From positions 11,565,601 to 11,629,600 of the forward strand of contig JARUPZ010000009.1 of NCBI GenBank assembly GCA_031213475.1: a stretch of 64,000 nucleotides of DNA. The letters run 5' to 3'. This document shows, in pieces, positions 3,480-64,000 of this stretch (position 1 is the first letter of the stretch; each line of letters begins with the position of its first letter). The position numbers were made by a program, and so were the translations under genes. The stretch comes from Nereocystis luetkeana. Its lineage: Eukaryota; Sar; Phaeophyceae; Laminariales; Laminariaceae. The notes under the pieces were generated by a model that saw only the letters and a program-made list of their open reading frames with translations, searched no databases and was not told the origin of the DNA.

Positions 3480-3593
3480 TTACGGGGGGGCATAGGAAAT
3501 AGGACCTACGGTGCAAAAAAAACTACCAGGTATACATTTCCCTATTTACGCTAACAATATTTGGTCTTATATAATATGGTCTCCCGCAGTAAA
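3480..3593. mobile_element. Family A MITE copy with internal TACCAGGTA
   Basis: A diverged copy of the ~105-bp MITE (ends tacggggg... and ...ccgcagtaa). The inner segment reads aactaccaggtatac where other copies have aacctatat, i.e. a TACCAGG insertion at a TA. Confidence 0.85.
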
Positions 3594-3829
3594 CAGATCC
3601 TGCACAGCACCACATTGCGGCAGGTTAGGATGTAGATGATCTAGCTGTAGGCGATATACCTGTAAGATGATACACCTGACGTGTTATCCATTTTACAATA
3701 AAAAGCAAGTATTGAGGTAGGGAGAGCGCGCCCACCTGGAGAAATCGAAGGTGGAGGCGAGCCAGAGAACGCAGCCGGCCCACTCTACCGCACAGCATCG
3801 GGAACGTTGGAGTTTGGTGTGGTGGGAAA

Positions 3830-4080: not shown

Positions 4081-6485
4081 TGGGAATGTAATGCGAATAG
4101 GAAAAATAGGCGACGCAAGGCCACATGCCGTCCTGCTGGGTACGGCAAGCACAGCCTACACACGCCAGCAACCCAGATACGTTGAAAAAGAAAACCGTGC
4201 GAGACAAATAAACAGTTCGGTACGCTGCCTCGGCTACGGTGGGAATCCAAATGGCAACCGTAACTCTGCCTACCGTGTAACGAGCGAGATAACGCACCCC
4301 CTCGGACGGGCTTATAAGGTCCGTTTTTTCCGCCATAATTTTAATAATTCCCATGTTTTTTTTCGCACGATTTTTCATCATCTTCCCGATTTTCCTGATT
4401 TTTTACTTCCAAACATGCTCACATTAAACTTCCCTGATATTTTCTGAAGTACTGCACAAAAATCGTGACAGAACGCCCCCGTATGATATAGGTATCATGA
4501 TCCAATTTTCAAAACAATTCCAAAATTTTGAAAACAAAAAATTGGGGTGGGAAAAGTCTGCTAAAAACACAACCGCCAGCAATCGCCCCCCTGCCTTGCT
4601 TTTCATGTAACAGGGGGTTAATTCGAGCATCTACCTACTGCTGCAGTCTGGCGGACCGCGCCGGAGACGCGTCTAAAAAGGGGCCATCTGTCATGAGGTA
4701 CCTTCATGCCGACGGGGCTACTTGCATCCCGGACGGCGCTCACACACAGGCGTTCCTATGACATATATATATATATATACGAATTATGAGCGTATGTGAG
4801 GTTTGCCGGTGTTGTGCTGTGCTGCTGCGCCGTCTCTGTACCGCGCGGGTGCTTGTCGAGACTCCGAGGAAATGCGGGTTGGAATTCGTTCAGCTTGTTG
4901 TGTTCAGAACGGTACGCACACACGCAGCAGCGCAGACCGTAGTCGTCACAAAAAGAGGACCTCGAACCGGCTGCTGCAGTACCTGTACCATGGCTGCCGC
5001 GACGTCAAAATTTTACGGTGTGACACGGATACACCGGAGCAGCACCAGACAACACTCTGGAGACAATCCGTCGAAGCCCACCGCATCTCTCTCCACCCCT
5101 CTAAACACGCGCTCACACGACACAGCAACAGCCTCAACACCTATCTGATGGCAGACTGCCTGCTTTGCTGCTGCTGCTGCTCTGCTGCTGCTGCTGCTCA
5201 CAGCGCAGCACCTCCTAGAACCCGCGAGCACGACACGAAGCACTTCTGATCATACCTTCGCCTGCAACACTCCAAGGAGCACAAAAAACTACCAGGTTCC
5301 AAAATTCGATGCGACTGACGATAGGGAAGGCACCCAGACACACCCGGTCGAATTTACAGCAGAGGATCAAAAACCGACCTTTTCGATCCTTCCTATCCGA
5401 CGGCATGAAAATAAGCCTCAGGCCGACTGTTATGGGAGACGAAGCCAGCGAACAAAAAACGGGTGTTCCCTTTATCGTAAAGAAACCCGCGAGCTGCGCC
5501 GTCGGTAGTGATGGGTCATTTCTGTACGGTTGCCCATAAAAATTGTGGTTTTCGCAGACAGCACCACCTTCCTCCGCCGCGAGTCCTCGCCTCACAGAAC
5601 ACGGATCACGCTAGAACCCCCCAGAATGCATGATCCCTTGGTCTGAGTGTCCTCGCTGCCAAGGTTTAGGGTCGTGGGTGGCCTGTGTCTGGAGGTCTCG
5701 CTTGGGACGTGGGAGCATGACCTATTTCTGGATGACTATTTTTCTGATCGGAAACGACCTCTTGTTTTGCCCACCAAAAACTTTGAGACGTGAATGGAGA
5801 AGGCTTCACGCCCCGAGCAGGAACTCTAGATACAGGCCACCTGCGGCACTCAGACTTGTCACTGGCGCCTCTATGCTCAGTGCACCCCACACCCTGTAGG
5901 TGCTGTAGCGACCCGTGCTCTGTGAGGTGACCACTGCTGTGGGTGGCGGCCGTTAGTGATGTGTCTATAAGCAGAGCATTTGTTTGCTGCCGCCTCGGGC
6001 AGGTTTTGGAACAGAAAAACAAGAAGGCATATCCTTGTCCGGGTTTGACCACCACAGAGGGGAAACCCTGTTCTGGATTCCGGTTTCGTCTCCCATAAAA
6101 CTTGGCCCCTCAAAATCGAAAAACAGTAAAAACTGAGCGACATACCAAGCCGCTCCTACTCTAAAGTTGAAGATAAAGCACGGTCGGCTTGGTCTCCCCC
6201 GGCAGATGGCGGAGAGTCATAAATAAAAAAAAGTGGAAGTCGCAGTACAATACAGGGAGAAAACACTCGGTACGAACGTAGGAATCTGCTGCTCTTGCTC
6301 ATGTACGTTTGGCAGTATACTGCTGCTGTAGTACATGGTGGGTGGGTTGATGGGTGGGTAGGTGGGAGGGTGCGTGGGTGCGGCGGGGTGGGTCGGTAAT
6401 AGTGCATATGTTTCGAATACCATGCGGGAACAAGCTCGGTATGAGCGAATTATCTACTACCTGGTACTGCACAATACGGGTCCTT
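4081..6485. other. Spacer with small simple repeats, no gene recognised
   Basis: Holds an AT-rich block (4320-4540) that resembles 43340-43470, a TA microsatellite at 4751-4770 and a CTG microsatellite at 5164-5198. Open frames up to 148 codons occur on both strands but none reads as a known family or has convincing splice context. Confidence 0.5.
6338..6398 (+). repeat. GGTGGGTGG-type simple repeat
   Basis: Short (GGTG)n-like tract; a second block lies at about 6770-6870. Confidence 0.8.
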
Positions 6486-6570
6486 GTAGGACTGCAGTCC
6501 CTTTTTGGGGACAAGCCACTTAAAATTAGAGTGGATTGCCCCCAAAACGGGACTGCAGTTCTAAAAGGTC
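6486..6570. mobile_element. Family B MITE copy
   Basis: Inverted repeat ggactgcagtccc ... gggactgcagttc around a ~40-bp centre. Other copies: 13222-13320, 14109-14203, 17835-17914, 20989-21081, 36531-36627, 38243-38441 (split by a family A copy), 44421-44509, 44699-44785, 54797-54890, with a decayed one near 27825-27898. Confidence 0.85.
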
Positions 6571-7530: not shown

Positions 7531-7749
7531 TTCTTTTTGAGCTCTTCTACCCATTTACGATATTGAGATACACCCACCCACGACGGCGTACAGTAGTACA
7601 AAGCAGTAGCACGTACGTAATAGATGTTCGTTCGTGTTCGTTCGTTCAGCACAACACAAAATAATCCGTATTCGCCCGGTGCATGATGCATCGCAGATAC
7701 GACTACTGCAGGTATTACTGAGGTCGCGCCTCATTATCACCAATTACTA

Positions 7750-7854
7750 TTACGGAGATCCATAGTAAATAGGACCAAATAGTATTGGTAAAAATGGTCA
7801 AGTATGTAGGTTTTTATGTACACCACAGGTCCTATTATCTATGGTCCTCCGTAA
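7750..7854. mobile_element. Family A MITE copy
   Basis: Ends ttacggagatccatag ... ctatggtcctccgtaa with the usual ggaccaaat ... aggtcctatt inner repeats. Intact TA in both arms, no scar. Confidence 0.88.
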
Positions 7855-8905
7855 TACGAGCACTACGTACTACTGCTGGATCAAGGTATATCCAACAAGA
7901 CTATACTGAATGAATAATGTTGTAGTGCCAGGCAGGTACTCGTCGTACCGCTGTATGATAGGTACATGCGGCGTAATTGAATTTGAGTACAACTTACCCC
8001 CACAGAAGGCAGCAAACCCAGCATTATTACAGCAGGAGATACAGCTGGCCAAAGCATGCCAAGAGTGACCAAGTACGAGATGCTGCACCTGGTGCAAGTA
8101 GATTGGTCTGTGGAAACACCCAACAGCAGTAGCATCACCCAAGATGATACAGACGTCCTGTACTGCTGACCAGCGGACCGGCGGCTGATTTCCGAGCGCA
8201 ATGGATCTCAAGATCTGATCATCATTTTGTTCATATTCATACCCCGACGAAGGTTGGGGCAGCACGCTCGTGGGTACGGCATACCCTACATTTCTTTTCT
8301 GCCTCAAGAGTCTCTATGCCCTGAGACGCCCCCCCTACCTGGTTGTCACGGAGGGGACGAGCGCCCAACACAAGCAGGCGACGAAGCCGTTGCCTCCCAT
8401 GCTCTCCAGCAGGAAAAAAAAGAGCTGAAAGTGGAACAAAGGCAGGAGGAAGAAGCACGTTAGCCCCGCCAGGACATGAGCAGCGCTTTCGGCAGAGGCG
8501 GCGACCTCTTGATATAGGCCGTGCTGTATCACATGAGAGGCTCGAGGATGCTGGATTGCTGTGGTCGCCATTGTGGGCTTTTCTCGGCACCGTTGCCAGA
8601 CGGAGACTAGTGGGTCATTCCCATTGACGGAGAGTTGGTCTTGAACTATGTTTCTGGGGAGTTCCACAAAACATATTTGCGTTATCCTTTCTGCCCGTTG
8701 GACATTCTCGGTGGGCACAGAGGAGGAGGAGCAGATCATCATCCCAGTCACCAGCCTCAAAGCACAATCGCCGTGGCGTGCAAGCCCTGCACTGGACGAC
8801 GCCGCAGACACCGGAGCCTTCCCACGCCATCCGTTCGTCCGTTGGACTCGCGTACTTTCGCTCACGAGTGTTTTGGTGCCGGAAGGCGAGGAGCCCCGCG
8901 AAAGC
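7855..8905. other. 5' flank of the checkpoint gene
   Basis: Unique-looking sequence. The plus frame that holds exon 1 is open from 8648, and the antisense frame at 8335-8907 is also open, which reflects composition. No promoter element could be assigned. Confidence 0.5.
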
Positions 8906-9174: not shown

Positions 9175-12100
9175 GTGGGTGCACGCTGGCCTGCACGTGT
9201 GCATTATGAGCATTATGAGCAGTACAGCAGAAGTATCGACTTGTACCAGTTCTACAGCAGCACTGTCGGATGTCGGCACTGCATTCCACTGGAGGTACTG
9301 CTCTGTGTGCTAAGATGTTGCATGTACTGGGCTGCGTACAGCAGTCGGGGTATTTCGTACCTGGTACCTGCACCTGGTACTCTACCAGAGGTGCGAGTAC
9401 GAACTTGCACTACAGCAGTACCTGTCGTACTGCTGTGCTGCTCAGCACCACATTTGTACAGCTGTCTACCCACGGTCTACCTGGTACCTGGTACAACAGT
9501 ACTCCTACGGCAGCAAGTTGTTGAACAGAAGGCCCTGGCTGGATTTCCATGTCTGGGGAAAGGTGCTGTCTACCTAACTGCTCGTACGCGTTCGCATCGC
9601 AGTACAGCACCAACCAGCATGACGCGAGAGCTACTGCTGCTGCTATAGACTACTTGTAGTCCTCCAAAAATGCACAACTCGCCAAAATGTTGTCTTTATC
9701 TGAATCCGGGTGCGGGACATCAGCCATCGTAACCAGCACACAGCAGCAGTATGTAGCCCCAAAATGCCAGCGCCAGCGCCAAGCCGAGCAGAGAAGAAGG
9801 ACAGTAGCTCCCACCAGTCCAAAGCAAGCTGAACCAGTCTTTATCACACCTTGGGCCTGTCTTGACGACCGCCATTCAACTGCTATGATAGAGCAGAACT
9901 GGTCCCAGGTGCACGCTCATCGCTTGTTAATAGCTGTATCACGCGTTGTTGCGTGTCTTGGTTCTTGCTACCCGTCGACATCCTGCACACTCAAGTGTCC
10001 GTGCCGATTTTTTCATCCTATTACGGGGGACCATACCTGGTAGTTAATAGGACCAAATATTGCTAGTAAAAATGGTTGAATATATAGGTATTTACGTATA
10101 CCACAGGTCCTATTAATTATGGCCCCCCGTAAAACTACTACCAGGTACCTGGTATTGTGTAGAGAGATACAAGCTCTGTGGTGACGAAACCACGACACGG
10201 AGATACTGCATGGCAATGCAGCAACAGGCGAGTCGACAACGCAATGCCATATGTCATCGTACTGAGTGCGAAAGTCACAACATACCACACCTCGGACAGA
10301 TCAGCTTTCCGTAGCTCGAGCTAGCTCTTTTCGGGGGTAGCTCACCAGTGAGCTATATGAGCTACATGAGCTAGCTCGTCCGCCCTCGGCTAGAGCTATA
10401 GGCGGTAGCTCATCTGCACATGTTTTCAAAGCTTGAGCTATAGAGGACAGCTCATCTGCACATAAATGCCCAGTGTGAGCTATAGGAGCTACATGAGCTA
10501 GCTCATCTGCCCCCGAGATGAGCTATATGAGCTACATGAGCTAGCTCATATGCCCCCGAGATGGGCTGTAGGCGGTAGCTCATCTGCACATGTTTCGAAG
10601 GCTTGAGCTATAGAGGATAGCTCATCTACACACATTTGCCCAAGGTGGGCTATAGGAGCTACATGAGCTAGCTCATCTGCCCCCGAGATGAGCTATGGGA
10701 GCTACATGAGCTACACATGTTTCCCCCGGCTTGAGCTATACCTGGTAGCCGGTAGCTCATCTGCACATGTTTTCAAAGCCTGAGCTATACACGACAGATG
10801 AGCTAGCTCATGATCTGTCCGAGGTTTGCAACATACCAACATACACACGCTAGTGCTGGGGGGGGGGGGGGGGGGGCAGCGGCAGCAAAATTAAGGGCAA
10901 GAACGAGGTGTGTATGGCATGGTGCACACGCCAGCAATCCAGATACGCTGCCACAACCGTCGTTTTTTGTCGTGAATTTCCCTCTCTGACGTCCCAAAAA
11001 CCCATAGTAGAGGTTTGAGTTGGATGACTGATAATTAAAGTATTATCAATAGTAATTGTTGTTGGAGTTGGATACGTACCAGTATACAGTAGCACGCTGG
11101 TCAGAAATGTAAGTAACGTTTAGTAATAGTCTTCATACCCAGTATCTATAACCCAAGGCTCCTCGCATTCACGCCCAGAAAGTGTTCGCTAATTGCAGGA
11201 GCTCTTCTAACTATCCGACTGTTTTGAGTTTTTTTGTCTAGGGAAGATCTCTTTGCTATCTGCGAGGGGCGCATTCCCCCGGGATACCACTCGCTTAAAA
11301 AGAGGGGCATAGAGCTGAGAGGGTTGCTGTACTGTAACTCATGGAAGCATCAAAACCCATTGCCGTCGACGACGCCGGTGCCGATGGCAGTGCCGAAGGC
11401 CATTATAGCAACAGTGTTTATTTTATCGAAACAAATGTTTTAATGTTTAATGAAGGCAATCAGCGCCATACGACTAGCTAGCCAAGTCGGTTTGTAGTCC
11501 GGCGTCTGTTCGCCGGCAACCCAATAACTACCAGTAGCCGGGAAGTCTTTCAGCCATCTGCCAGCCGTGCCCAAGAAGACTAACAACACTACGGCTGTAA
11601 TACTTTGATCTCTCACTTTAGGTGCAGTTCCACAGCAGTGGTGATCCCTTTCTATTGTCCGTTGGGCGTTGGATCCCCAGAAGATAAGATCTGAACTAAA
11701 GTGAGACCCCGAAGTAGCCCGGGATAGCAACATACCGACTACCTTGGGCGCCAAGATAGTGCGGTGCCGCTCTATCCGGGGTATGGGCGAGTATTTAGAG
11801 CGTCTACGATATCGTGCTGGTCTACTACCCTTGCCCACCCCTCAGCCACCTCGATGTCGGCGTTGTTGGCCGTACGGCACGTGGTACCGTGCGCTTATTT
11901 GCACTGAACGTCTTGCGTGGTGGGGCTACGGCCAGCTGAGTGCCTCTTGTCTGTCGTTGTGCAGGCAGGCAGGCTCTGCTGTCCTGTACTGAACTGCTGT
12001 ATTACAATAGGTACCGTAGTGGTATGGAGGCGTCTGCTGTGGAGGCGTGACGCTCCCGCTGTAGTGCCATGTCCGCATTATTGAAGGACCGGTCCTGCAG

Positions 12101-15100
12101 TGGTGAGCCTGCCGCACGGCGTACAGCGGAACGAAGTCGTGACATAATGATTTCCACCGCGATAAGGTGGGTTCCCGCGGTTATCGTGCCGCGATATTGC
12201 TTGACCACGACTGTATATTACGGGTAATACGGGATATATTATTTTTTTCCCTACTGAGGTATTATTCCGCTTCAGTTTTTGGAGCCTATCATATCCTGTG
12301 ACCACGGACTCAATATTTTGGGCGTGAGTGAATGTGAGAACAACAACAATAGTGGAAATCAGGACTGCAGTAATCGTTCACACCAAAACCTATACATTCC
12401 AGATTTTTTTTCAAGAGTAAGCATACACGGTTCTCGTTACCTAAATATGTTCCCCTGTATTGGGACAATACACAACAGGCGTGGCGTTGACGGCCTACAG
12501 CTAAAAAAAACTTGATTGTATTTGTTTCACATTGCAAGGTCTCCTCTACATTTTTTTAGAATGGCCCTGTACAAAAGCATACATCTCTGTCCAAGTTCAA
12601 GTCACCTGTCCTCGATACGGGACAACCGGCGTGGGGTTGACGACCTCCAGCTATAAATACTCGATTGTACTTTAATCAGATTTCAAGGCCTATAGACTTA
12701 GCACGCTACCAGGTATTCGAGTATAGTTTCAGCGTACTGCTTTCTCACACTCCTACACAGCGAATGGCGAGGGATTGGCTGCACGTAACGTACATCAACG
12801 TGACAGTGCTCGGTTTTCCTGGACTTGACAGGCGCTTCGAGCCGCTGATCTCGGACTCCGCGGTGGATGGCGAGGAAGAGGCCGGGGGGGGCGATGGGGA
12901 TAAGCTGGCGGTGTGGTGGCAGTACATACAAGCTGTCCAGGACGGCCTGCCCAACGACCTGCAGGTGCGCGTTGACAGGGACTGCTCGTATGGTGTTTGC
13001 GAATGACTTGGTGGCGTTGGATTTATTGTAGTCTATTTCCTATATAAATCGCAAACCCAACACACGAAAAAAATAATTGCTGTGACAAGAGGGGATGACA
13101 GCAGTAATGTTTTTTTTAACCGAAGTATTGTCGGGATTGGGTAACTCTGTGGGTCGGTTGGCAAACGGAGCGACTTCTGATAGGCTGCGCAGCGCCTCCG
13201 AATTCACCTGCCTGATTCTTTCTTTAGTAGAACTGCAGTCCCGTTTTGGGGACAAATTACTTATCATTTGACTCGTCTGTCCTGGACATGGGACTGCAGT
13301 CCTACCAGTGAAACGGTTAACCGATCGGCTCCTCGTGTTGTGTCTGTTTCATTTTTTTTCTGAAACCCAACCAAAATGGATTGTCGCAAATCCCCTGCTG
13401 TTTCACCACTTGGACAGATCATGATCGATCTGTTCTGTCTACAGATATATCATCTAGTTCCTCGCCTGTCGTTGTGAGAGGTTGTGCAGGATCTGCATGG
13501 TACACATCCAACTCAGAAAGAAACGCGTGCTAGATCATGCGGGTTGTGCGGCCTCCCACCCGACAACACGGGCTAGATACCAGATATGATAAATGTATTT
13601 ACCCTGGAAGGTTCCTGTAAGCAGTACGTACGTAGGTGATCGAATTGAAATTTATACCAGGTATAGATTTGTCCGAGGTGAAAATATGCCTCTCTTGGTA
13701 GACACAAGCCCGCCTGATAATTTCACAGGTCCGAATTGGGCCTCCCTCATGATACGCAAGACAGCATACCCCTCGGCAGGATGAACTCCAGAGCAGAGTT
13801 TATGTAAAAGAAGCGGGGCACACACACCATAACAAGAAGTCCGGCTTTAGAAAGGTCTCGTCGACATCCTTCTTTAGGCGTTCTGTCTTTTGCGGCCGTA
13901 TTCCCGTCTTGGGGACAAACTACTTCGAATCCACCAGTGCGGTAGCGTGCGTAGTAATGGTGGTCCCCGCTATATGTGGTGCCCGTATCGCTGGCCGGCG
14001 TATACTCGTACCGATACTACAGAAAGGCCTGCACTACTGTGCCGTTCACCCCTTAATAACAATTTCTTATTGATGGTTTCTTGGAAAACGGAGAGAGAGT
14101 CTTCATAAACCGTTTCAGGAGCGCAGTCCCGTTTTGGAGACGAACTACTTGAAATTTGAATGGTTTGTCCCCAAAACGAGACCGTGGTCTTAAAACGGTT
14201 TTTGAAGACTCTCCCCGTCGCCGAAAAAGTTATCTTGGGAATTGGTGCTAACGGGGGAAGGGCACAGTATTGCCGACCCCTCTATAGTGTCGGTAGGCGC
14301 CTGCTAACGATATGGGCAATATCTATAGCCGCGACCGGCACTACCTTGAAGTACCACGCTGCTGTTAAATCCCATCTATGTCAAGCGATTCCATGGACAC
14401 TATTGCGGGAAACCGGCACAAATGAACCGGCACTATAGAGGGGCCGCTACTCCCTTTTAGAACCATGGTGTTCCGGATGGTATTCTCGACAGTTTTTACC
14501 ATATGATGTGTGCTACTCGTTTTTTCGCTTGTTTCGTTACCTTACGGGTTGCCTTAGCTTGCTATGTATAGGTCGCGGGTTTGTCCTTAGTTGGTCAGGT
14601 GCTACAGCAGTTAGCGCCCCCGGTCGTGTGCTATCTTGCGTGCTACACGAAAGTTGCGTGCGGTGATTTGTGAAGCTAGGCCTCTTTGTGCCGGACAAGT
14701 TGTTTTGTGCCTCGAGTTTTTCTCTTGTAAAGGCCGGATACAGCACATCGGGCCGGAAAGTTTTTATATTCTCACGGGTCGTGTCAATTCGATTCGGATC
14801 GGGTCAGTCGGGTTTGGTCGGGGTAGAAGGTTTTCTGGTCCCCATAGATCAGGTGCAGTCACCGGTTCCCAGCCCGACCCGACCCGGCCTGACCATGGAG
14901 GTCTGACACGACCCGTGAACAAGGAAGCATACCTCCGACAGATATAGTACAGATCGTTGACAGATCATCGGTTTCCACTTGATGGTGTAGATATTTCAAG
15001 GCAGATATATTCATTCCCGATCTGTTTGATGTGTATGATCTAGCTCATATTGCCGGGGGCGAACCTCACAATATAAATGGGCGATACTTCATCGCACAAG

Positions 15101-41748: not shown

Positions 41749-41759
41749 ACACACAAAAA

Positions 41760-44358: not shown

Positions 44359-44420
44359 AATAGCACACCCTCTTGTTATCACGTCTCTTCCGGAGGCTGG
44401 CCGAAAACTACAGTAGTAGT

Positions 44421-44509
44421 TTAGGACCCCAGTCCCGTTTTGGGGACAAACTACTTATATTTAGAGTATATTGTCCCCACATATGGGAGTGCGGTTCTAA
44501 AAGGGTTAA
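44421..44509. mobile_element. Family B MITE copy
   Basis: agtcccgttttggggacaaa ... ttgtccccacatatggg ... ctaaaagggttaag. The right end keeps CCCTTTTAG/TTAA on the complementary strand. Confidence 0.88.
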
Positions 44510-44698
44510 GGCACCTTAGAAATCAATCAATACGACCCCTAGGGGACATTCCCTCGCTGTGGCCATCCCCCCCCCCCCCCGCTACCACACCCCCCAGCTG
44601 CGGGGCTCCCGTGCTTGTTGCTCATCTCCAGAGAAGCGTTAGATAGCACCATCCCCCACCAGCACACCCGGTGATAGTATGCTACCACCGGGGTAAGC

Positions 44699-44785
44699 TT
44701 AACCCTTTGGTATAGTACAGCAGTCCCGCTTTGGGGGCAAACCACACTTATTCCAAGTAGTTTGTCCCCGAAACGGGACTGCTAC
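44699..44785. mobile_element. Family B MITE copy with left TTAACCCTTT end
   Basis: Starts ttaaccctttggtatag and ends gaaacgggactgct. It lies 190 bp from another family B copy. Confidence 0.85.
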
Positions 44786-54300: not shown

Positions 54301-57300
54301 CGTAATACCTCTATCGTAATCGACAGTAGCCCTACGCTCGTGTTTTTTGCAATTGGTAGCCATCAGCACGGTTTGGCCAAAGTACTCCTGACTGACCCAG
54401 GGTCTGTTCGTTGGGATACGATTGGTGCTCTGCAGTAACTACTGGTCATGTACCCGCTGGGATCTCTGGCTACACTGTTTGGCTTCTCTCCAGAATTCGG
54501 TTTCTGGGTGACATGGTAATAGTGTAGAGCTGCTTACGTCGTATAAGTGGAAACCGATTATCTTTCCGTTCCAGGTATGTTGTACAGTGTCTATCCCCGG
54601 TGCACATGCACAACAAAAAAAAAAATAGAAAAGAGAACGCTATTAATGGTGGAGAGAGGTGTTTTTTCTTGCCTGTACCGCACCTCGCCAAAGTTAGGTG
54701 AGGGGTGCCCGCCCACTGCTGTACCTGCCATCTTGTATCCCGAGGCGGATGGAGGCTTGACTATCCCCCTTTCCTGATGGAGCCTTGGAACCTTCCAGGA
54801 CTACAGTCGCTTTTCGGGGACAGACTACTTGAAAAAAAAAGTTGAGTGATTTGTCCTCAAAACGGGACGCCAGCTCTAGAAAAGGATCAAGCAGGCGTTA
54901 TTCATATTAATAGAAGCATCGGCGACCGTGAACTAACGCGGGAAAGGGTGATTTGATTTATTGAATCCCTGTACGTAAATAATCTGGAGCCTGTCCTCTA
55001 CCTGGTATGAGTTTGACACGCATACGTATAATACAGTAGTGCCGATAGGTGATCTCGTGCCCCTATCCCTATTTTCCCTGCCTATCTCACCAACCTTCCA
55101 AGCATTGTAAGCTTGGAAATAGACGACGAAGAAATTAGGAAAAAAATGGGATGCTTCGTTTTTTCTTGCCCCCTGTAACTCTCCGCCTGTCCTATGTTCG
55201 TACGCGTTTTATTTTTTTTGTAGGGTGTCCCAGGGGCGTCCGTGAAGAAGATATGACGGCATCCCACGCCCCCAGAGGTCGGAACGGAAAATCATCGCAA
55301 CCGTTGCGATCACATGATGAAACAACAAGAAAGGGAGAAAAAACAAAAACCTTACCTTCATATTTTTTTTCACATGGTTCTATTACGGGGAACCATACCC
55401 TGGTAGTTAATAGGACCTACGGTACACACAAAAACCTATATATTTCCCGTTTTTTACCGACAATATTTTGGTCCTATTTACTATGATCCCCCGAAATAGT
55501 AACCCCCCCCTGCCTAGCGAAAAAATATTCTGTGACGGTTCGTAATTTTTTTTTTCGGGCGCCTTCGGCTGTCCTGTGAATCTTCGTTACCCCTTTTACC
55601 CGATCTCGCCTTTTTTGCTACCCCTGCCCCAGGCGTTGGAAGCGTCGGCAATGATGGAAGACATCTCCCCGGTCGGGAACGGCCCCCCCTCCTCCAACTT
55701 CGCGTCACTGCTCCCTCTGTTCGCCGCGGAAGCTTTGGCAGCTGCCTGTGACATTGCGGGAGTTGCATGCAGGCGAGTTGCGGCGTGTCTCGGGAGGGGG
55801 GGGGGGGGGGGGGCTGCTTGTTTGCTAGAACAAATCCCGTAGCCCAGCCCAGGAAGGGGTATGTGAACAAAATAATGATACACCACACCCTCCCCTCAGA
55901 TATGTATGTATGAAAAACGAACCGGCCGGGGTGCAAGCAAGTACTTGAGGAGTTTCAAAACCATACCTGTCATTTATTTTTTCACGCCATCTGCGTTGTT
56001 TAGGGATGCAACTTTTCATCATTTTTCACGCCGCTGCTGGCTTTGCTAGCCTCGGAAACCTTACCGGTCGCCTGCGGGGCAAGGGGAGTTGCTTGGAGGC
56101 GGATAAAGGCGTGTCTCGGAGAGGGTGTGTTAGTTTGAACATCGAACCTATGGTCTAGAAGGTACAGCAGCAGAGTTGTGAACTCGGCTATTATTAGCAA
56201 GACAAGTCGCCGATTGTTTTTTGGTACCAATAGCCAAGTCGTTGACTAGCTGGTAGTTGGTTAGACAAGTCGCCGATTGGTTGCTTGTTGACTAGAGAAG
56301 CCCCCGACTAGTTGTTTGTTTGATAGACAAAGTCGCCGACTAGTTGTTAGTTGGCTAGACAAAGTCGCCGACTAGCAATTAGTTGGCTAGACGAGCCGCC
56401 GGCCAGTTGTTGGTTGGGTAGACAAAATCGCCGACTATTAAATAGTCTTCGGTTGGCTGGGTACTACAGTTAACGGTAATCTGCGAAGTTCTGCGTGTTT
56501 GTTTTGGACAAGTACGACGTCAGTCGGTTGGCTTCGCCCAGGTATATAGCTATACGGTATAGCTATACGGTACTGGTCCCTCCATAGTGCCCGTTGCCGG
56601 CTATAATGCCTGTGGAATCGCCTGGCACAGAAGGGACTTCACCAGTGTCCAGTGTGGTATTACTGGGGGCCATAGTAAATAGGACCAGATATTGTTAGTA
56701 AAAATACTGAAATATATAGGTTTTTGTGTGTGCCGTAGGTCCTATTTACTATTGCCCCCCGTAATGGTTGACTGACGCACATCTACCGGCACTATAAAGG
56801 GTCAGTTCAATTCTATTGACGCCTCGTACAGACCCTGGTACGTACATGAACATGTCTGAAGATAATCTATTGTAGAACCCAATCTGCCGTTGTGATATAC
56901 CGGCGATTTGCCGGGTCTGTAAGTACACGAGTAAAGATCCAACCGAGGAAATATGTCCTAGATTATTCAGATTGTACGGAGTCCACCCGACAACGTGAGC
57001 TAGATCATACATAACATACAGATCATACAGATCATGAAAATGTATTTCCTGAAAGATCTGCGGTAAATCGTCAAGGGCGAGTCGATGATCTGTAGATAAT
57101 GTGTAGATGATGCGGCGTCCGAAGATCCCCCCCCCCCCCCCGCTCTCTCTCAGCACTTTTCGGAGGGCCGTGAGAGGTTCGGACGTATTTTACAAGAATC
57201 GAAAAAAGGAACCAGTCGGGCCGGGACTTACGAACGACTTTGAAATATAAATACATCCTCTCTTTCCTCGGACAAACCACCAGTCCCACTTCAGAAGCGT

Positions 57301-60300
57301 TCTATTTAGGAGGTGTCACATATGGGGAAGACACTTTCTGAGCTGCCCCGGCTTCCTAACCGGGCACTAGTTGAAGGATCAGTATGCAACTTGTCCTCGA
57401 CAGTGATGGGCATCATGCGCACGTACATGAACGAGATGCGTGTAGCATCGGTCCTGTTCATATGTTCGTCCCTGTCAAATTCCGCATTATACCTTGGGGG
57501 GACATATGTGCCTCAGACAAATAGAGGGTTAACCTCTATCGTAGAACGCCTCTTCATGATCTAGACCCTTCAGGGAAGATTATCTGTGTGATCCGTGTGA
57601 TCTGTGCGGTCTGCGTGATCTGTGTGATCGGTGTGATCGGTGTGATCGGTGTGATCTGTGTGATCTAAGCTCATGTTTCCGGGCGGCAGCCGACATACCC
57701 TGCATGGTCTAGGGCGTATTTCCTGGGTTTGATCTGCACAACTGTACGAGATCTTGCTCAATAGCAACAGCACCAACAGTCAACCATGTGCAGTATTGTA
57801 GAGGCAGCAACTACGTGAAGTGAAGATAGCGTCGATCCAGCAGCGGCTATTTCGGTCGGTACATCAGACACAGCAATCAATTATGTGATTAGCGCGGGGA
57901 ATGTATGTGCGTTTGTTCACATTGAACCGTTCTTTCTACCCGTCAACATCAGCATCCAGCACACCCGATGCCCATGCCGACTCCACTATCCTATTTTATC
58001 GAGAGAGATGCAAAACGCATGCTGTCACAAAACTACGCCACAGGGACACATACTACAGTACGTTGTATGCAATGCGATGTCATCGTACCGGTTGCGACGG
58101 GCACCACGGCCATGCCAGCAGCCCGCATGCGTTGAAGTTATTGAGAAAAGCGGAAGAAACAAAAGGAAGAACACAACACGACAGACCCACACCCACCCCC
58201 CCCCCTCTATCTCGAGGATCATCCCCTTACCCCCAACCCTGCCAGCTGACCCACTCTCACTCACACTCGACCCCCCCCCCCCCCCCCCCCCCTTCTGCTT
58301 CGTCGTTTGCTGATTGGTCAGGGCGGCGGAGCGCGAAGCCGACCCCGAGTTGGCCGCCCTGTGCCACCCGCCCCCCCGCCCAAAGAACGCCAACCTCACC
58401 GAACCTCAACGGGAAAACCGCCGTCAGCCGGAAGGATGGGGTGAGGGAACCCTTTCGTCCACCTCAGCGGTGCCGAAAGAGGATAAGGTTTCGAGAGATC
58501 ACGGATCGATAGGTGACGAATCGAGCGGTAACGGATCGGGAAGTGCTGGAGAAGCTCCCCTGTCGAAGACGGCGCCTGCCCGAAGGACACCTCGGACAGG
58601 GCCACCGCAAGGAAACCATCATGGCCTCAAGGGAGGTCATCTTGGCCCAGCCTCCCGGGACCTTGAGAGGGAGAGGGGGGGGATGGGGGTCGGGGACTGG
58701 GGGCCTCGGGGCTGCTGCGACGTGGTGGTGTCCAACGACAGCGATTTCTTGGTTATGGATGTACCCGGGTGTGTGTGAGAGAGAGCAGTGGTGGTGGGAG
58801 GGATGTTTTTGGAGAGGGAGGGTGTAGTGTACGGTGCGACGTTTTTCGCTGAGTTTTTTTTTTTTTTTTTCTTTTTTCAATCCCATTCATTGTCTTTGCC
58901 CTTCTTTTTTTTCTTCCGTCCTCTCTCTCCCTCGTCTTAGCCTAGACGAGGTGGCACAGCGGGCTCTTTCCCCCCCCCCACCTCCTCATTACTGTTTGAC
59001 ATGCTGCATTACAGTACCATTCACATACCAATCGTAACCTACTGTAATATGGACGCGTTCTGCGATAGAGGCAGCGCATTTCCGCTAAATTATTTCTGAA
59101 GGACGGGGCTCCTTAACACCTCGTCGGAATGCCAATCTTGTTTCGAAACATGACGCTTTTGTATAGTTGGGCCGTGGGACTATTCAGCGGGATGCAGTTG
59201 AATTTTAGCTGAAGTCTGTTTTTCGGATGAGGTATGAAGCGCCTTAAGGTCAAGTGAGCAGCCCCAGAAAATTTAGGTTGAACTTCTATGGGTCGTGAAC
59301 GTAGGGGGAAATGTGATTTTTGGGCCAGTCGCGGGTTATATTTACTCTTCCCCCCGTACCCCAGGAGATTGTACTCTGGACCGCACGACATGTTTATCTC
59401 CGGGGGGGGGGGAGGGGGGGTTTCTCGTTTCGGGGCGGTTTTATTTGGTATCAATGATATGTTTTTTTTCTCTCGTCGGTACCGATTTCTTTGTCCCAAG
59501 CTATAAGGAACGCTTAGTTTGTTACACTCAGTCCAAACGATAGTTGTATTCCGGGGCAGAGCAATCTATACAACGACGAGGGTTTGTGCTCGATTGGCAC
59601 GTGGCGTGTCTTTGTCGTGTCGGCGCTGCTCGTTTTGTCCAACCGCGTTATTTTCGTCTAGGGGTACATATGCATGCTACTTATAGCGCAAGCAAAGGCC
59701 GGGCGGCTGAAATTTCGGTCCTCGTGTGGAGAGCTCTGTGGTGCGCGCGCGCAGCCCCTACCTCCCTCGAATGGGTCGCCGTTTCGTCCTTGCGGTAGAC
59801 CCGGGAACGATGTCATTGCATTGGATAGACGGGGGTTACATCCCGATTATTGTTGCAGTTGCGGCATTGTTCCTGTTGTACCTCTTGTTCTTGTTCTTGT
59901 TCTTGTTTTTATTCTTGTTCCTGTTTTAGTTATTGTTCTCGTTCTTGTTCTTGTTTTTATGCTTGTTCCTGTTTTAGTTATTTTTCTCGTTCTTGTTCTT
60001 GTTTTTGTTTTTGTTCGTGTTTTTGTTCTTGTTTTTGTTCTAGTTTTTGTTCCTGTTTTTGTTCTCGTTCTCGTTCTCGTTCTTGTTCTTGTTATCGTTC
60101 TTGTTCTGGTTCTCGTTCTCGTTCTTGTTCTGGTACTCGTTCTCGTTCTTGTCCTTGTTCTCGTTTCTCAAGATCCGGTCCTTGCTCTTGATTTTTTCTC
60201 TTGCTGGGGCTGGGCACTGACTGAATCAGCCGGCAGCGATTATTCTGTCGACAAAATCAATCAGTATCCTCGATTGCAGCAGTGTACCGCCCCTAGCCTC

Positions 60301-61788
60301 TCCTGTCCGCTCCCGAATCGCATTCAGTGGGTCCCCGTGTTGGCCAGGTCAATCAGTAGACTTACTACTTCCAGTACAGCCCCAGTTCTTGTTCCTCGTG
60401 TTGTTCCTGTTTCTCTCTTGTTCTTAATTTTGTTCGTGCTCTTGTCTGTTTTTTTTTTTGTCATTTCTTGCGCCGAATACCCCCCCCCCCCCCCCCCTCT
60501 TGTGCGTGTTTGAAGTTCTCTGGTCCTCGCCTGCGCGCGCGGCAGTTACCCTTTCCCCCCCTGCCTCCCAGTCTCGGTCACCTGTAGCGTCTGATCTCGT
60601 GTCGAGATTTTCGATAGATCGTTTTTTTTTGTCAAGTTTCGATACCAGGTATCATATCGGAATATCGAACGTGTTTCGCCCTCCGCGCCCCTGGCACCCT
60701 TGTTTTTGTTTTTTGCAGACATGTACTGAAGGAAAGCCTTGACGTGTCTAATATCGGAATCATGTTGATTCCGTACTATATTAGCCTAGCGGTGTTGTAT
60801 TCCTCTGTCTCACGGTATATGACCACATAACTAGTTTTTTTCTAGGATAAGGGATCAGAACGGACACTGGGTATACTGATGTAGTTGGCTAGAAAGGGCG
60901 ATTTAACGCGAATACAACACACACATTATATCGGACTCGATTCTCGTTCGATGCCCAACCCAATCAAGACATATAGATACCGAACGGAAGCTTCGAAGTA
61001 TCAAAATATCGAGATCGTGCATATGGATTACTGCTTTTGTTCTTCGGGTTCCGATATCAACATCCGATCCGATACCGATATCCGACATCAAGCAGCATTG
61101 GTAGTTGCCTGACGCTTTCCCCATTCTTGGTGTGGCAGTGTTTTTGTTTATCGGTATTGTCGAGCTCGAAGCCGATATCGATATCCGATCCGATATCGTT
61201 ATCCGATATTCAATGTCATCACTGCAGTAGTTGCTTGACCCTTACCCCATCCCTTGTTGGTGGATGGTTTCTGGTCCTCGTGCGTGGCAGTTACATTCCT
61301 TTTTGGTCGCTCGCTGTGGGAGAGGACGGCTCCGCTGGCGCAGTCGTTTTTCGCCGATCGCTCGTCGCAGGTAAGCAACGATCGCTCGTCGACCTCTCTG
61401 TATGCTGCTGCTTTGCGTACAGCTGTGTTGGGAGCACACTCTGACAGAAGGCTGCGCGGACACCCGCAAACGTCGGGCTTTGGTGACTCTGTTGCTGCTG
61501 GGGGCAGAGACTAGTGAACCATGCTTTCCGACGGACCGGATTCTATGATGCTTTGATTTTTGTCTTATTCTCCGTAGTGGTGGTAGGCAGTAGACAGTAG
61601 ACAGTATAAAGTAGGCAGTAGACAGCAGGCGGTGGACAGGTAGTAGGTAGGCAGTAGACAGCAGGCGGTGGACAGGTAGTAGGTAGGCAGTAGACAGCAG
61701 GCGGTGGACAGGTAGTAGGTAGGCAGTAGGCAGCAGGCAGTACGGAGTACCTGGTAGGCAGTATCAGGTAGGCAGTATGCAATAGTAG

Positions 61789-61827
<39 letters not shown>

Positions 61828-64000
61828 CAGGCAGTAGGAAGTAGTGTTCCCAGCAGCTCGGTCTCGGTGCCTTTAGAGCGCGTTTTTTCCGTCTGACCGT
61901 CCGTATGTTTGACGTCCCGCCAACACGCCTAACGTGTCCTGCTGTGTGCGGCGACATCCAACAGCGAGGCTCGGAATACCGCCTGATCGTATGCCGGACC
62001 TGGCCTGCCTGGTGGGGAACGATTGGATCGAGCCCGACAGCCGGGTGCACAGGTACTGGTTAAACTGACGTTTTGGATGCTTGGAATAAGCCCCTTCACA
62101 AAAAACGCAGCTGACGAAGGTCTGCCCGGGCAGGCGAGCTTCCTCAGAGTTGCCCGCGTAAAATGATGCCGTTTCGGCGATGTAGGGTTTTGTCTCACGA
62201 AACTGCATTTTTTTTTTTTTTTTCATTTCGGTGATTGACTTCTCTTTCGGCTCGGATAACGGCGGTCACCACCCCCGTCCCGGAAATTCTAGGTCTATCC
62301 CCGACCCCAGCCCTGGTTGGTTGGTGTGCCATGGGGTCGTTGTGCTCGGAAAGGCTCGTTACTATTACGGGAGACCATAGTTAGTAGGATCTGTGGTATA
62401 CTTAAAAACCTACCAGGTATATATTTAGCCATTTCTACTAACAATATTTGGTCCTATTAACTATGGTCCCCCGTAATGTAATAGGTTCTTTGCGCGGACG
62501 ACGGAGGAAGTTTGCCTTCGATGACAGATCTACGCGAGATTTCGTTAACCCTTTTAGGACTACAGTCTCGTTTTGGGGACAATTGGGGACAAGTTACTTG
62601 GAATTTGAGTGGTATGTCCCCAAAACGGGAATGGAGTTCTGAAAGGGTTAACGGCACCCGCGTTGTCACCGATTTGTTTTTTTTTCATGAACATTAACAT
62701 CGAAATCGTAAATCGCATCTGTCTGATTTGTTCGTACTGGACGTTTTGTTTTTCAATGTATTGAAGCGTGCCCGTCTGATTTTTGCTGAACAGGCGTATG
62801 CTTGAACGTATCGGTCTGATATGTTCTGAACGGAATGCTTCTACGCGAGTATCGAAATCGTATCGGCCTAAATAGTGAACCATTGCTTTTTTTAGTATTG
62901 AATATCAAAATCATACGAGCATGCGGTACATCAACCTTTTTTATTTTCCTTATACCAATATTTCGAAATCGTATCCACCTGAGTTTCCGTTTTATCGGTA
63001 CTCGTAGGTATCAAAATCAATCCTCGTTGGAATCGTATATGGAGCATACCAAATGTCGAAATTGTATCCACCTGAATTTTTGATTATATCGGTATCGTAC
63101 CGAAATCGTTTATCGGTTGATATCCGATATCCGATATCTACCACAAACGTCAGAATATCGCAATGAAGCTTATTTTTCAACCCTTGCGACGCATGCCAGG
63201 ATAATTGTGGAGGAAGCGAACGGAAACAGCAACACCAACAGCAACAGCAACATCAAGAAGAAAAAACGCAAGGGGCCCACCCCAGCCAACCGAAACGGCA
63301 ATCGTTCCGCCGCTCCGCCCCGCGCCAGAGACCTCGTCGAAGCGACAGGCCGTTACCTCTCTCGATTCTACGGGGACAATCCTCCCGCCAGTACTAGAAT
63401 GGAAGGCGATGGCGATGGCGATGACGATGACGATGAGGTCTCGCGTCTCCTGTGCGCACGTTTTTTCCCCTCGCTTGGAGATCCGCGGAAAAGCGTTACG
63501 AGAGTCGTCGGGAAGCAAGCGGCCGCCAGAGGTGCTTCTCCGGCCGCCGAAACAGCTTTTTATTCCGCCGCTGGCGGTGGCGGTGGTGGTGGCGGTGGTG
63601 GTGGTGCTGCTGCTGCTGCGGCGGCGCTTGGAGATGAGCGGGGTAGCGTTACAAGGGAGAGGTCTTCGCGTTGTGCGGTGGTTGGGAAGCAAGCAGGGTC
63701 GAGTGCTTCTTCTACCGTTATCCCTGCTGATGGTGGTGGTGACGGTGGTGGTGGTGGTGGTAGTGGTGGTGGTGATGGTGGAGGTGGTGTTGGTGTTGGT
63801 GCTGTTGTTCGTGGTGGTGACGGTGGTGGTGGTGTGGGTGTTAGTGACGGTGGTGTTGGTGTTGATGTTGGTGTTGGTGTTGGTGGTGGTGTCGATGTTG
63901 TCGTTGCCGAGCGTTTCGTGGAGGCGTGTTCAACCACCGGCGAAACCGTCGCAAACGCTGTCGACCAATCACCACGTCACGCTGCGTCAACAACGCCTCC
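45363..64000 (+). CDS. Asteroid/XPG-type nuclease-like protein, 3' end beyond the window
   Basis: Seen: five exons with agreeing phases (45363-45389, 49769-49968, 52118-52259, 55633-55772, 58322-58768) encode MGVRGLTSY, then [27 protein letters not shown] with [34 protein letters not shown] and [19 protein letters not shown]. Known: MGVxGL, the VDG, VVxDG and EAD motifs, and the SNDSDF block are the acidic core of the XPG/FEN1 PIN fold; the form LPLFA...SNDSDF...DVPG is that of the Asteroid family. Inferred: active-site Asp residues at 54, 105, 177, 309 and 311 are present, so metal binding is plausible; the biochemical role of Asteroid proteins is poorly defined. An insert of about 120 residues separates EAD from SNDSDF. 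Exons after 58768 are uncertain; 58941 and 63200 are candidates. The helical arch and flap-endonuclease C-terminus were not found in what is visible. Confidence 0.87.
46195..46470 (+). repeat. Family U dispersed repeat
   Basis: gtgtactcgataggagagat ... atgcatggccgtagtcgtat ... gacggagcatgtcgggtttt ... aagcgcgaagcgcc ... actaagaaccgcttatgagg ... gacagcttcaatgagtcg. Part of it recurs in inverse orientation at 51515-51680, a related part at 24045-24145, and the right half at 50855-51000 and 51150-51240. Confidence 0.8.
48463..48570. mobile_element. Family A MITE copy
   Basis: attaacggggggcacatatt ... ctatggtcccccgcaat, orientation with aggacctacggtacac first. Confidence 0.9.
49600..49725 (+). 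repeat. Decayed tandem copy of Asteroid-type exon 2
   Basis: ggtgcctgagtttggccccg ... cttcctaccatgccaggcgg ... cggcggtagatggcttgg follows, base for base with changes, the true exon's gctgcttctgagcctggtcc ... ctttctgccatgccaggcag ... ctggcggtagatggctcgg. It stops before the ALIYHV codons and is not open. Confidence 0.8.
49769..49968 (+). CDS. Asteroid-type gene exon 2: first acidic motif
   Basis: Acceptor gccaacag, donor gtgagg, phase 0 in and phase 2 out. [19 protein letters not shown] carries the first catalytic-type Asp (VDG) of the PIN fold. The first 35 residues are not conserved and include a Pro-rich stretch. A decayed copy of most of this exon lies about 190 bp upstream. Confidence 0.9.
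50640..50850. repeat. Family D fragment
   Basis: Repeated cagatc/gatcta blocks with catgatctagctcatg and ctcatatttcaaggg as in other copies. Confidence 0.6.
51515..51680 (-). repeat. Family U, inverted copy
   Basis: Reverse complement of about 46195-46360: cgcttcgcgcttagcgcaag ... aaaacccgacatgctccgtc ... cctctcctgtcgagtacac. Similarity is high enough to suggest a recent copy. Confidence 0.85.
51690..52080 (+). repeat. Degenerate repeat with CATCACCGGGTG and TATCGATATCG phrases
   Basis: Four units of 100-130 bp sharing catcaccgggtggga, ctcgctcgcc and atcgatatcg, ending at the acceptor of exon 3. Confidence 0.75.
52118..52259 (+). CDS. Asteroid-type gene exon 3: VVVVDG motif
   Basis: Acceptor ccaccag gives the last base of a Gly codon, donor gtgatg, phase 0 out. 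[18 protein letters not shown] then [20 protein letters not shown] and LERRR match the Asteroid block (G)xYxxxxxxxxxxxxxLxxxGIxPxVVxDG...KxxTxxxR. The Asp at residue 105 is the second acidic position. Confidence 0.93.
52435..52770 (+). repeat. Minisatellite, ~20-bp unit GTGTTATCTTATCACCCGT
   Basis: Sixteen or so tandem units with cccgtg/ccgggg variants. A short relative (gtgttatcctatcacccag) lies at 15355-15395 in intron 2 of the other gene. Confidence 0.92.
52785..52905. mobile_element. Family C copy
   Basis: tgcctctatagtgccggcat ... agccggcactactagtatag then agggaccacc. A short complete copy with both ends. Confidence 0.75.
52983..53180. mobile_element. Two family A MITEs in direct tandem
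   Basis: First copy 52983-53083, second 53084-53180, sharing a single junction gtccccc-gtgccatac; the second lacks its outer left end. Both have the same interior, so a local duplication or an unequal exchange is likely. Confidence 0.85.
53233..53337. mobile_element. Family A MITE copy, near consensus
   Basis: ctattacggggggccatag ... ctatggtcccccgtaatag; 50 bp from the tandem pair. Confidence 0.93.
54155..54259. mobile_element. Family A MITE copy
   Basis: ttacggggggccatag ... ctatgaccccccgtaat. A truncated copy (ttacggggggaccagagta) ends about 40 bp upstream. Confidence 0.9.
54797..54890. mobile_element. Family B MITE copy
   Basis: ggactacagtcgcttttcgg ... caaaacgggacgccagc; ends eroded. 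Confidence 0.8.
55383..55496. mobile_element. Family A MITE copy with a TACCCTGGTA scar variant
   Basis: Left arm ccataccctggtagttaat against ccatagttaat: eight extra bases at the same TA as in the 10020 copy, with one extra C. Confidence 0.9.
55633..55772 (+). CDS. Asteroid-type gene exon 4: LLPLFA helix
   Basis: Acceptor tgccccag; phase 0 in and phase 2 out. [20 protein letters not shown] followed by AGVACR corresponds to the family pattern in which a LPLxA helix precedes the EAD motif. The favoured donor is cag|gcgagt, a GC-AG intron. A GT alternative (gtgtct, exon end 55784) keeps the same phase and would add four residues. Confidence 0.85.
56200..56450 (+). repeat. Minisatellite with GACAAAGTCGCCGACTAGTTG units
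   Basis: Six to seven units of 36-40 bp sharing ttggctagacaaagtcgccg and gactagttgttag. Confidence 0.88.
56570..56805. mobile_element. Family C element split by a family A MITE
   Basis: Left part tggtccctccatagtgcccg ... agtgtggta; family A at 56660-56764; right part gttgactgacgcacatctac then cggcactataaagggtc. Removing family A restores a normal family C end spacing. Confidence 0.8.
56880..57090. repeat. Family D copy
   Basis: gtccacccgacaacgtgagc, tagatcatac, acagatcatac and gtcgatgatctg in the order of the 2745 copy. Confidence 0.75.
57590..57665 (+). repeat. Ten-bp minisatellite GTGTGATCNG
   Basis: Seven to eight units (gtgtgatccg, gtgtgatctg, gtgtgatcgg). Confidence 0.92.
58322..58768 (+). 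CDS. Asteroid-type gene exon 5: EAD and SNDSDF motifs
   Basis: Acceptor ggtcag supplies the last base of an Arg codon; donor gtgtgt, phase 2 out. It begins [14 protein letters not shown] and ends [16 protein letters not shown]. These two motifs hold the acidic residues of XPG region I and usually lie close together. Here about 120 residues of Pro/Ser/Gly/Arg-rich sequence separate them. The exon follows a long poly-C tract and TTCTGCTT that serves as polypyrimidine. Confidence 0.92.
58941..58974 (+). CDS. Possible Asteroid-type gene exon 6 (short, 3' limit unknown)
   Basis: A strong acceptor (cctcgtcttag after a long pyrimidine run) is followed in the correct phase by [10 protein letters not shown], giving [13 protein letters not shown] across the join, reminiscent of the segment after DSDF in Asteroid proteins. 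No convincing donor is seen; the frame continues into a poly-C tract. The end given is only where the plausible protein text stops. Confidence 0.35.
59050..59300. mobile_element. Family E element
   Basis: gcgttctgcgatagaggcag ... ggggctccttaac ... tcggaatgccaatctt ... ccccagaaaatttaggttga then acttctatgg. Same interior order as 23060-23310. Confidence 0.75.
59880..60175 (+). repeat. (TTCTTG/TTCTCG)n hexanucleotide array
   Basis: About 45 units of gttctt/gttctc/gttttt. Opens a Val-Leu-Val frame that is an artefact of the repeat. Confidence 0.93.
60640..61240 (+). repeat. ATCGATATCCGATAC-rich degenerate repeat
   Basis: Phrases ccgatatcgatatccgatcc and ggcagtgt/ggtagttgcttga recur two to three times; a related AAATCGTATCCACCTGA repeat lies at 62690-63130. 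Confidence 0.7.
61575..61850 (+). repeat. GGCAGTAGACAGCAGGCGG minisatellite
   Basis: Three near-identical 48-bp units (61610-61735: gtagacagcaggcggtggac, aggtagtaggtaggca), then (GGCAGTA)n. A TACCTGGTA lies between the two parts at 61748. Confidence 0.92.
62365..62476. mobile_element. Family A MITE copy with TACCAGGTA scar
   Basis: Inner segment aaaaacctaccaggtatat where consensus copies read aaaaacctatat: TACCAGG inserted at a TA (62411-62419). Confidence 0.92.
62545..62651. mobile_element. Family B MITE, complete with TTAA at both ends
   Basis: ttaacccttttaggactaca ... ttctgaaagggttaa. TTAA duplication followed by CCC is the signature of the piggyBac superfamily, so this is a piggyBac-like MITE by inference. 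A 12-bp internal duplication (ggggacaattggggacaa) is private to this copy. Confidence 0.9.
63200..64000 (+). CDS. Long open low-complexity exon at the window edge, possibly of the Asteroid-type gene
   Basis: After a possible acceptor gccag the frame is open to the end of the window. It reads IIVEEANGN, an Asn/Ser run, a Lys-rich patch, [19 protein letters not shown], an Asp-rich run, [19 protein letters not shown], then long Gly and Ala/Val/Gly runs from GGT repeats, and [20 protein letters not shown]. The non-repeat parts look like real protein and share the composition of the checkpoint gene's exons. Linkage to the Asteroid-type gene rests on position and strand only. Confidence 0.5.

Follow-up and report, generated by a model that had tools for sequence, protein, structure and literature searches.

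What accounts for the repeated occurrence of one nine-base palindrome, TACC(A/T)GGTA, in the genome of the bull kelp Nereocystis luetkeana (Laminariales)? We examined a stretch of 64,000 nucleotides, referred to below as the window, which covers positions 11,565,601 to 11,629,600 of the forward strand of contig JARUPZ010000009.1 (assembly GCA_031213475.1). The palindromes are probably excision scars of a TA-targeting cut-and-paste DNA transposon, each site recording one insertion and a later excision. Directly observed are a 7-bp insertion at TA, a symmetric target preference, a scarcity of decayed copies, and the presence of the motif in separately assembled kelp-like DNA.

Excess and exactness of the palindrome

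An initial annotation of this DNA described a massive excess of the palindrome, and our counts bear this out, with 31 exact copies of TACC(A/T)GGTA in the 64-kb window. Its coordinates were exact for 29 of the 31 copies and off by one for two (39637 and 44128, correctly 39638 and 44129). The copies make up 28 loci, three of them chained pairs, at a density of about one locus per 2.3 kb (2, 8, 3, 2, 4, 3, 3, and 3 loci in successive 8-kb stretches).

Dinucleotide-preserving shuffles (n=100) gave a mean of 0.34 copies and a maximum of 4, and none reached 31. Markov models of the window, counting both strands, predicted 0.41, 0.69, 0.75, and 1.07 copies at orders 1 to 4; the order-5 expectation was 4.9, this order being largely fitted to the motif itself. 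When 9-mers with at least 12 copies were ranked, the motif came first at order 4 and tied for first at order 5. The motif's 31 copies compare with a mean of 0.5 for the rest of the 512 odd palindromic 9-mer classes, and each of the eleven other arms with this composition occurs once at most. Chance and base composition are ruled out as the cause by these shuffles, models, and class counts.

The motif is also sharply defined. A/T-centred copies number 31 and G/C-centred copies one, giving the odd palindrome with an A/T centre that is typical of Sleeping Beauty-like scars. Single-substitution neighbours are near background in the window (19 observed, 12.2 expected). Because decayed or substituted copies are so few, the process looks recent.

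Some loci lie in repeats. The window contains a palindromic family of miniature inverted-repeat transposable elements (MITEs) of about 112 bp with ends TTACGGGGG...CCCCCGTAA, many copies of which adjoin TA. After merging there are 17 MITE places, including 3475-3586, 7743-7856, 10018-10140, 37691-37825, and 62359-62484. Besides the MITEs, the window holds tandem arrays, among them a 170-bp repeat (at 10739) and a GTAGGCA array (at 61748).

The loci, their variants, and the clearest empty site are as follows. Scars have no strand assignment, and every line down to 62411-62419 contains the exact motif.

3524-3532, scar TACCAGGTA in an approximately 112-bp MITE copy; sisters have a bare TA, with no gap at the junction in 18 of 25 spanning alignments
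6458-6466, scar TACCTGGTA
9358-9366, scar TACCTGGTA, with a degenerate partial copy of the motif after it
9478-9493, chained scars TACCTGGTACCTGGTA (9478 and 9485)
10034-10042, scar TACCTGGTA within a MITE copy; sisters have a bare TA, with no gap at the junction in 38 of 42 spanning alignments
10139-10154, chained scars TACCAGGTACCTGGTA (10139 and 10146)
10739-10747, scar TACCTGGTA in the 170-bp tandem repeat; bare TA in sister units, 4 of 4 ungapped at the junction
12707-12715, scar TACCAGGTA
13655-13663, scar TACCAGGTA
15707-15715, scar TACCTGGTA
16474-16490, scar TACCAGGTA chained to a variant with a 6-bp core, TACCAGGGTA (16481), the latter from a variant scan
23409-23417, scar TACCTGGTA
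23528-23536, scar TACCAGGTA; one weak empty-site alignment (49 bp)
26788-26803, chained scars TACCTGGTACCTGGTA (26788 and 26795) in AT-rich simple sequence; sister alignments weak and uninformative
30066-30074, scar TACCTGGTA
36634-36642, scar TACCTGGTA
36676-36684, scar TACCTGGTA
37654-37662, scar TACCTGGTA
39638-39646, scar TACCTGGTA
44129-44137, scar TACCTGGTA; one gapped sister (39108-39194) with TA at the junction
45577-45585, scar TACCTGGTA
46939-46947, scar TACCAGGTA
48844-48852, scar TACCAGGTA
49017-49025, scar TACCTGGTA
54999-55007, scar TACCTGGTA
60643-60651, scar TACCAGGTA; one weak sister (51 bp)
61748-61756, scar TACCTGGTA in the GTAGGCA tandem array; bare TA in one sister unit
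62411-62419, scar TACCAGGTA in a MITE copy; rejoined flanks match 37702-37813
55396-55405, variant scar TACCCTGGTA (extra C) in a MITE copy; 8-bp private insertion CCCTGGTA, sisters with bare TA, 36 of 42 spanning alignments ungapped at the junction
16159-16168, possible variant scar TACCTGGGTA from the variant scan; no sister found
37702-37813, minus strand, scar-free MITE copy, the clearest empty site, by alignment to rejoined flanks

Empty sites in sister repeat copies

We rejoined the flanks of scars on a single TA and aligned them to sister repeat copies within the window. The contrast between a bare TA and TACCWGGTA (W, A or T), which the initial annotation had proposed to look for between haplotypes, was seen between paralogous repeat copies at five of the 28 loci. 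At 62411, the rejoined flanks matched 37702-37813 without a gap at 91% over 112 bp, and those of 10034 matched a sister, again ungapped, at 92% over 78 bp. For 10739 the match was 85%, with an ungapped junction and gaps elsewhere. The flanks of 61748, in the tandem array, matched at 75% over 91 columns with two gaps, both away from the junction, while those of 3524 matched at 81%, the best alignment having a 2-bp gap nearby. The unit is a 7-bp insertion that converts TA to TA-CCWGG-TA and duplicates the TA. Insertion at TA with TA duplication, leaving the core between two TAs, is the behavior of IS630/Tc1/mariner elements, and is observed here at these five loci.

Self-comparison of the window gave 7-bp gaps at three loci (10034, 10739, and 62411; eight entries owing to gap placement), all of them CCWGGTA, and an 8-bp gap at 55396 corresponding to CCCTGGTA. 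It returned no clean 7-bp gap entry at 3524 or 61748. Each of the four scar-bearing MITE copies has a scar-free copy as its nearest relative, so the scar insertions in MITEs look independent. One MITE position was hit twice (3524 and 62411), and another twice when the variant is counted (10034 and 55396). The scars also look young relative to the MITEs, whose copies are about 9 to 29% divergent in the alignments listed, while few scars are substituted.

These comparisons bear on whether the copies are simply part of a longer dispersed repeat or satellite. Five loci do lie in repeats, and 3524 and 62411 occupy the same MITE position; however, the MITE copies carrying these two scars are not mutual nearest relatives (they rank 10th and 14th as one another's relatives), most sister copies of the host repeats lack the motif, and 19 of the 28 loci have no spanning flank match elsewhere in the window. 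The copies thus do not all fall within one longer repeat; had they done so, the idea of the initial annotation would, by its own criterion, have been refuted. A longer repeat is extremely unlikely as the explanation, and we rejected it on the flank and sister-copy comparisons.

Target preference and chained scars

Target preference was counted with chains collapsed, giving 28 sites or 56 half-sites, at ten positions, and was compared with the largest chi-square obtained from 28 random TAs in each of 5000 draws. At +1, just outside the TA, A occurs in none of the 56 half-sites (background 0.17). At +6, T occurs in 29 of 56 (background 0.27) and A in 4, and at +7, 46 of 56 half-sites have A or T (background 0.52). 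The observed +6 and +7 chi-squares were reached in 3 and 8 of the 5000 draws, or in 0 and 6 when scar TAs were removed from the background. A control set of 20 TACWGTA sites showed no target preference. Such a two-fold symmetric preference around the TA is what would be expected of a transposase dimer.

The initial annotation had suggested that chained copies arose when one inserted in the TA of another, and the preference agrees with this, since the scar's own TAs fit it. They present C at +1, T at +6, and A at +7, which multiplies the target weight 3.6-fold (fitted on the same sites). A scar is therefore itself a favoured target, which helps explain the chains. Three head-to-tail pairs share a TA (9478/9485, 10139/10146, and 26788/26795), where insertion spread evenly over all TAs would give 0.28 (P(>=3)=0.0026).

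The chains and empty sites also speak to the idea that a DNA-binding protein recognises the palindrome and that selection maintains it. Consistent with that idea, the motif is sharp, its single-mismatch neighbours are near background, and it occurs in most 8-kb stretches. Selection alone, however, cannot create exact 7-bp, TA-duplicating insertions in repeats that have scar-free sisters, nor can it create chains with a common TA, and we consider selected binding sites very unlikely.

A proposed model for scar formation

We infer that an element was once present at each site, together with the sequence of its tips, the stagger of its cut, and the mismatch repair that followed. Two identical 3' overhangs that pair except at the middle base would be expected to yield an odd palindrome with A or T at its centre, and Sleeping Beauty scars have this form with overhangs of three nucleotides. 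Applied here, the pairing logic predicts a parent with ends 5'-CCAGG or 5'-CCTGG and a cut placed five nucleotides inside. The element would insert at TA and duplicate it, and on excision a cut five nucleotides inside would leave 5'-CCAGG or 5'-CCTGG of each terminal inverted repeat as 3' overhangs on the flanks. These identical overhangs could then anneal through four G:C pairs around a single A:A or T:T mismatch, and mismatch repair would leave A or T as the scar centre. Four G:C pairs in the annealed overhang would also favor uniform repair, matching the uniformity observed.

Provided that the palindromes are excision scars, we lean towards CCWGG tips with a 5-nt stagger. The alternative would be the usual 3-nt stagger with tips CCA or CCT, where CCA joined to TGG with the loss of one base would give CC(A/T)GG. 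That cut predicts a 6-bp CCATGG core and other products; CC(A/T)(A/T)GG cores number zero in the window. The scar thus predicts transposon tips of CC(A/T)GG or CC(A/T), and the former, if true, would imply a 5-nt stagger, which is unusually long. Three variants in the window (16159, 16481, and 55396) have one extra base. We also considered strings with a 4-bp core, TACCWGTA/TACWGGTA (14 sites, about 4 expected), as scar variants and rejected them, since they do not show the target preference.

The motif in separately assembled DNA

An exact 22-base pattern located the MITE in three contigs of bacterial metagenome-assembled genomes (MAGs), and similarity added one more contig from these three MAGs. 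The record titles name Flavimaricola, Phycisphaera, and Oligoflexales. In the family of the Phycisphaera MAG, one of 51 genomes was positive, namely that MAG itself. From their sequence, several MITE-bearing contigs look chimeric: their ends have repeat families in common with the window and are joined to bacterial-looking DNA with long open reading frames (ORFs). Algal DNA appears to lie at one end of JALZWD010000061.1 (L038), of contig 167 of MAG G003 (L039), and of contig 69 of MAG G002 (L041). The portion available of a paper on the bull-kelp microbiome mentions Flavimaricola, Phycisphaera, and partial host genomes, and in that portion names neither Oligoflexales nor these accessions (PMC9238374); the MAGs with kelp-like ends may belong to that study.

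The kelp-like contig parts contain 4 motifs in 9,627 bp, compared with 0.066 expected, a density of 0.42 per kb against 0.48 in the window. Without the contig that was fetched for its motif, 3 motifs remain in 8,846 bp (0.061 expected, P 4e-5). The boundaries between kelp-like and bacterial parts were set after seeing the data, and L040, with one motif, is in neither count. The half-sites resemble those in the window at two positions, with A at +1 in 0 of 8 and A or T at +7 in 7 of 8, and at L038:2762 the empty sisters are ungapped in 22 of 22. The bacterial-looking remainder that was counted, 43,445 bp, has no motif. An assembly or library artefact, for which we found nothing in favor, would not account for a motif that is frequent in the kelp-like ends of contigs assembled by others and absent from this remainder, and such an origin is improbable in the extreme.

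Across the whole MAGs G001 to G003 there are 24, 2, and 5 motifs, versus 11, 5, and 8 of a reversed control pattern, so that two of the three show no excess; none of the 24 in G001 is on the MITE contig. Nine viral contig records carry the chained motif, with 2 or 3 motifs each in the stretch examined. The MITE was not found in viral contigs with the exact 22-base pattern, nor in phages.

Search for a parent element

To find a parent, we paired TACC(A/T) and (A/T)GGTA ends no more than 15 kb apart in the window and inspected the best 25 pairs. The top two join MITE copies and the remainder look like chance. One candidate, 45850-49129, with 11 of 13 end bases alike, was judged a chance pair, given the large number of pairs compared and the background level of half-sites. 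In the kelp-like contigs, a single pair at L038 had 17 of 30 bases alike and was rejected, both of its ends being themselves scars. By eye, the 18 single TACCWGG ends in the window share no common extended sequence. Among 20 long ORFs searched, out of 52 ORFs of at least 150 amino acids in the window, none matched any Pfam family, DDE transposases included, at E 0.001.

Several results weigh against excision scars. Among the best 25 end pairs in the window, none is a convincing TA-flanked element with CC(A/T) ends, and TACCWGG ends lacking a second TA are at background (18 versus 15.3-18.6 expected). Good sister copies are available at five of the 28 loci only: 44129 has a gapped one, 23528, 60643, and 26788 have weak ones, and 19 have none. 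The target preference is weaker once the five repeat-borne loci are dropped. The remaining 46 half-sites include none with A at +1, 21 with T at +6, and 37 with A or T at +7, values reached in 329, 150, and 57 of 5000 draws, so that part of its strength comes from MITE-borne sites. TACSGTA (S, G or C), whose 14 sites are not expected to be scars, likewise shows A at +1 in 0 of 28 half-sites and A or T at +7 in 23 of 28; seven of these 14 control sites lie within MITE copies. The kelp-like half-sites have T, C, and A at +6 in 3, 3, and 2 of 8, and at L038:2824 none of 17 sisters is ungapped. The centre base on the plus strand is T in 21 copies and A in 10, where 1:1 is predicted (two-sided P 0.07). 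Finally, the varied footprints usual for excision are almost absent, save for the 6-bp variants.

The contrast between 28 scar loci and no recognised parent is the strangest part of these data. The parent may be a giant element with one end beyond the window, or it may be absent by chance. Because scars occur without a recognised parent, we keep direct micro-insertion as a rival, in which an abortive transposase, an integrase that joins short fragments of ends, or a nuclease specific for TA and coupled to templated repair would add CCWGGTA in one step, and a full element would never be present. The single ends without excess, the very uniform product with few imprecise variants, and the density of about one locus per 2.3 kb all fit such a process. 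In contrast, ordinary insertion and excision would readily give both the symmetric preference and the A/T centre, and we know of no reaction that adds CCWGGTA in one step. We therefore regard micro-insertion as unlikely.

Returning to excision by a TA-targeting transposon, a far-reaching form of it would be a hyperactive or developmentally programmed TA-element system in a brown-algal lineage, with a 5-nt stagger, self-complementary CCWGG tips, and near-uniform repair. Insertion would be followed by near-obligatory excision, recently and perhaps still today, leaving about one scar per 2.3 kb genome-wide and almost no elements. This proposal, extended genome-wide from a single 64-kb window plus under 10 kb of related sequence, is unlikely.

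Comparison with known systems

Cut-and-paste transposon scars are normally few, varied, and hard to spot. The window holds one exact scar per approximately 2.3 kb, countable by a simple pattern, so that a whole genome could be surveyed for excision, target choice, and repair. That scars exceed elements also poses the question of how an element leaves so often and stays so little. In ciliates, transposase-derived enzymes remove TA-flanked DNA, the internal eliminated sequences, at many places, which resembles the present case, and excision there leaves one TA; here CCWGG and a second TA stay.

Sleeping Beauty leaves TACAGTA or TACTGTA, five bp by that paper's count with TA included, and shares with our motif the TA target, the TA duplication, and a short, odd, palindromic core with an A/T centre, as do Tc1-like elements (PMC4378557). 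A symmetric preference around the TA is likewise found for Tc1-like elements (PMC7913693). Sleeping Beauty and ZB, however, favor the AT-repeat target ATATATAT, whereas the preference here is for not-A at +1, T at +6, and A or T at +7, and neither a transposase nor element ends were found here among the 20 long ORFs and the best 25 end pairs. Footprints are 2-4 bp for Tc1/mariner and 0-3 bp for ZB, ranges exceeded by the present core of 5 bp, or 7 bp with TA (PMC7913693).

Stowaway and Osmar5 in grasses offer a closer parallel in length. There, mariner-like elements leave terminal inverted repeat fragments of 1-4 bp per side, and so up to 6 bp, between two TAs (PMC1925063). A 5-bp core, although above the 2-4 bp range, is within the total that these fragments allow and hence not unprecedented, and the cut is not readable from the scar. 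Those footprints are varied and few; uniformity, palindromy, and density are what stand out here. The IS630-type element ISY100 also targets TA and is cut with a stagger inside its 5' ends, at two nucleotides (two to three for the superfamily), compared with the five proposed here (PMC2170065).

The initial annotation had likened the motif to a Tc1/mariner-type scar. The in-window empty sites and the target symmetry support a parallel in mechanism, while family membership is not proven; we describe a uniform palindromic excision scar at very high density that works like Tc1/mariner and do not file it as a member. A literature search of titles and the beginnings of abstracts returned no report of such a scar, nor any match to the literal motif, and in the text searched of an Ectocarpus transposon paper the words excision, footprint, and MITE are absent (PMC12477816).

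Other features of the window

The scars at 30066 and 39638 fall within long ORFs of the window that may be partly intronic. As read from the sequence, each of the 31 scars carries the splice-donor-like string CAG|GTA on one strand, any effect of which is presumptive. Between 30 and 60 kb, this string is on the minus strand at 9 of 11 sites, and the three longest ORFs noted there (30033, 33952, and 39471) are on the plus strand.

No window match to Rfam reached the gathering score. Two ORF pieces on the plus strand, at about 52143-52310 and 58689-58775 and 6.4 kb apart, matched XPG_N (E 0.24) and XPG_I (E 0.2) below threshold and in that order, as if they were exons of a single XPG/FEN-like gene interrupted by long introns. 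The piece at about 52143-52310 had no match among solved structures.

A MITE copy at 25217-25222 has a private CGTA insertion and reads TACGTA against TA in its sisters; the insertion may be a scar left by a different TA element. Another palindromic family, with copies of roughly 90 bp, is found at approximately 6487-6568, 14108-14194, 20985-21064, 44410-44520, 44698-44781, and 62553-62658, and in L038 at 2949-3037. Several of its copies end in TTAACCCTTT...AAAGGGTTAA, which suggests a TTAA-type element.
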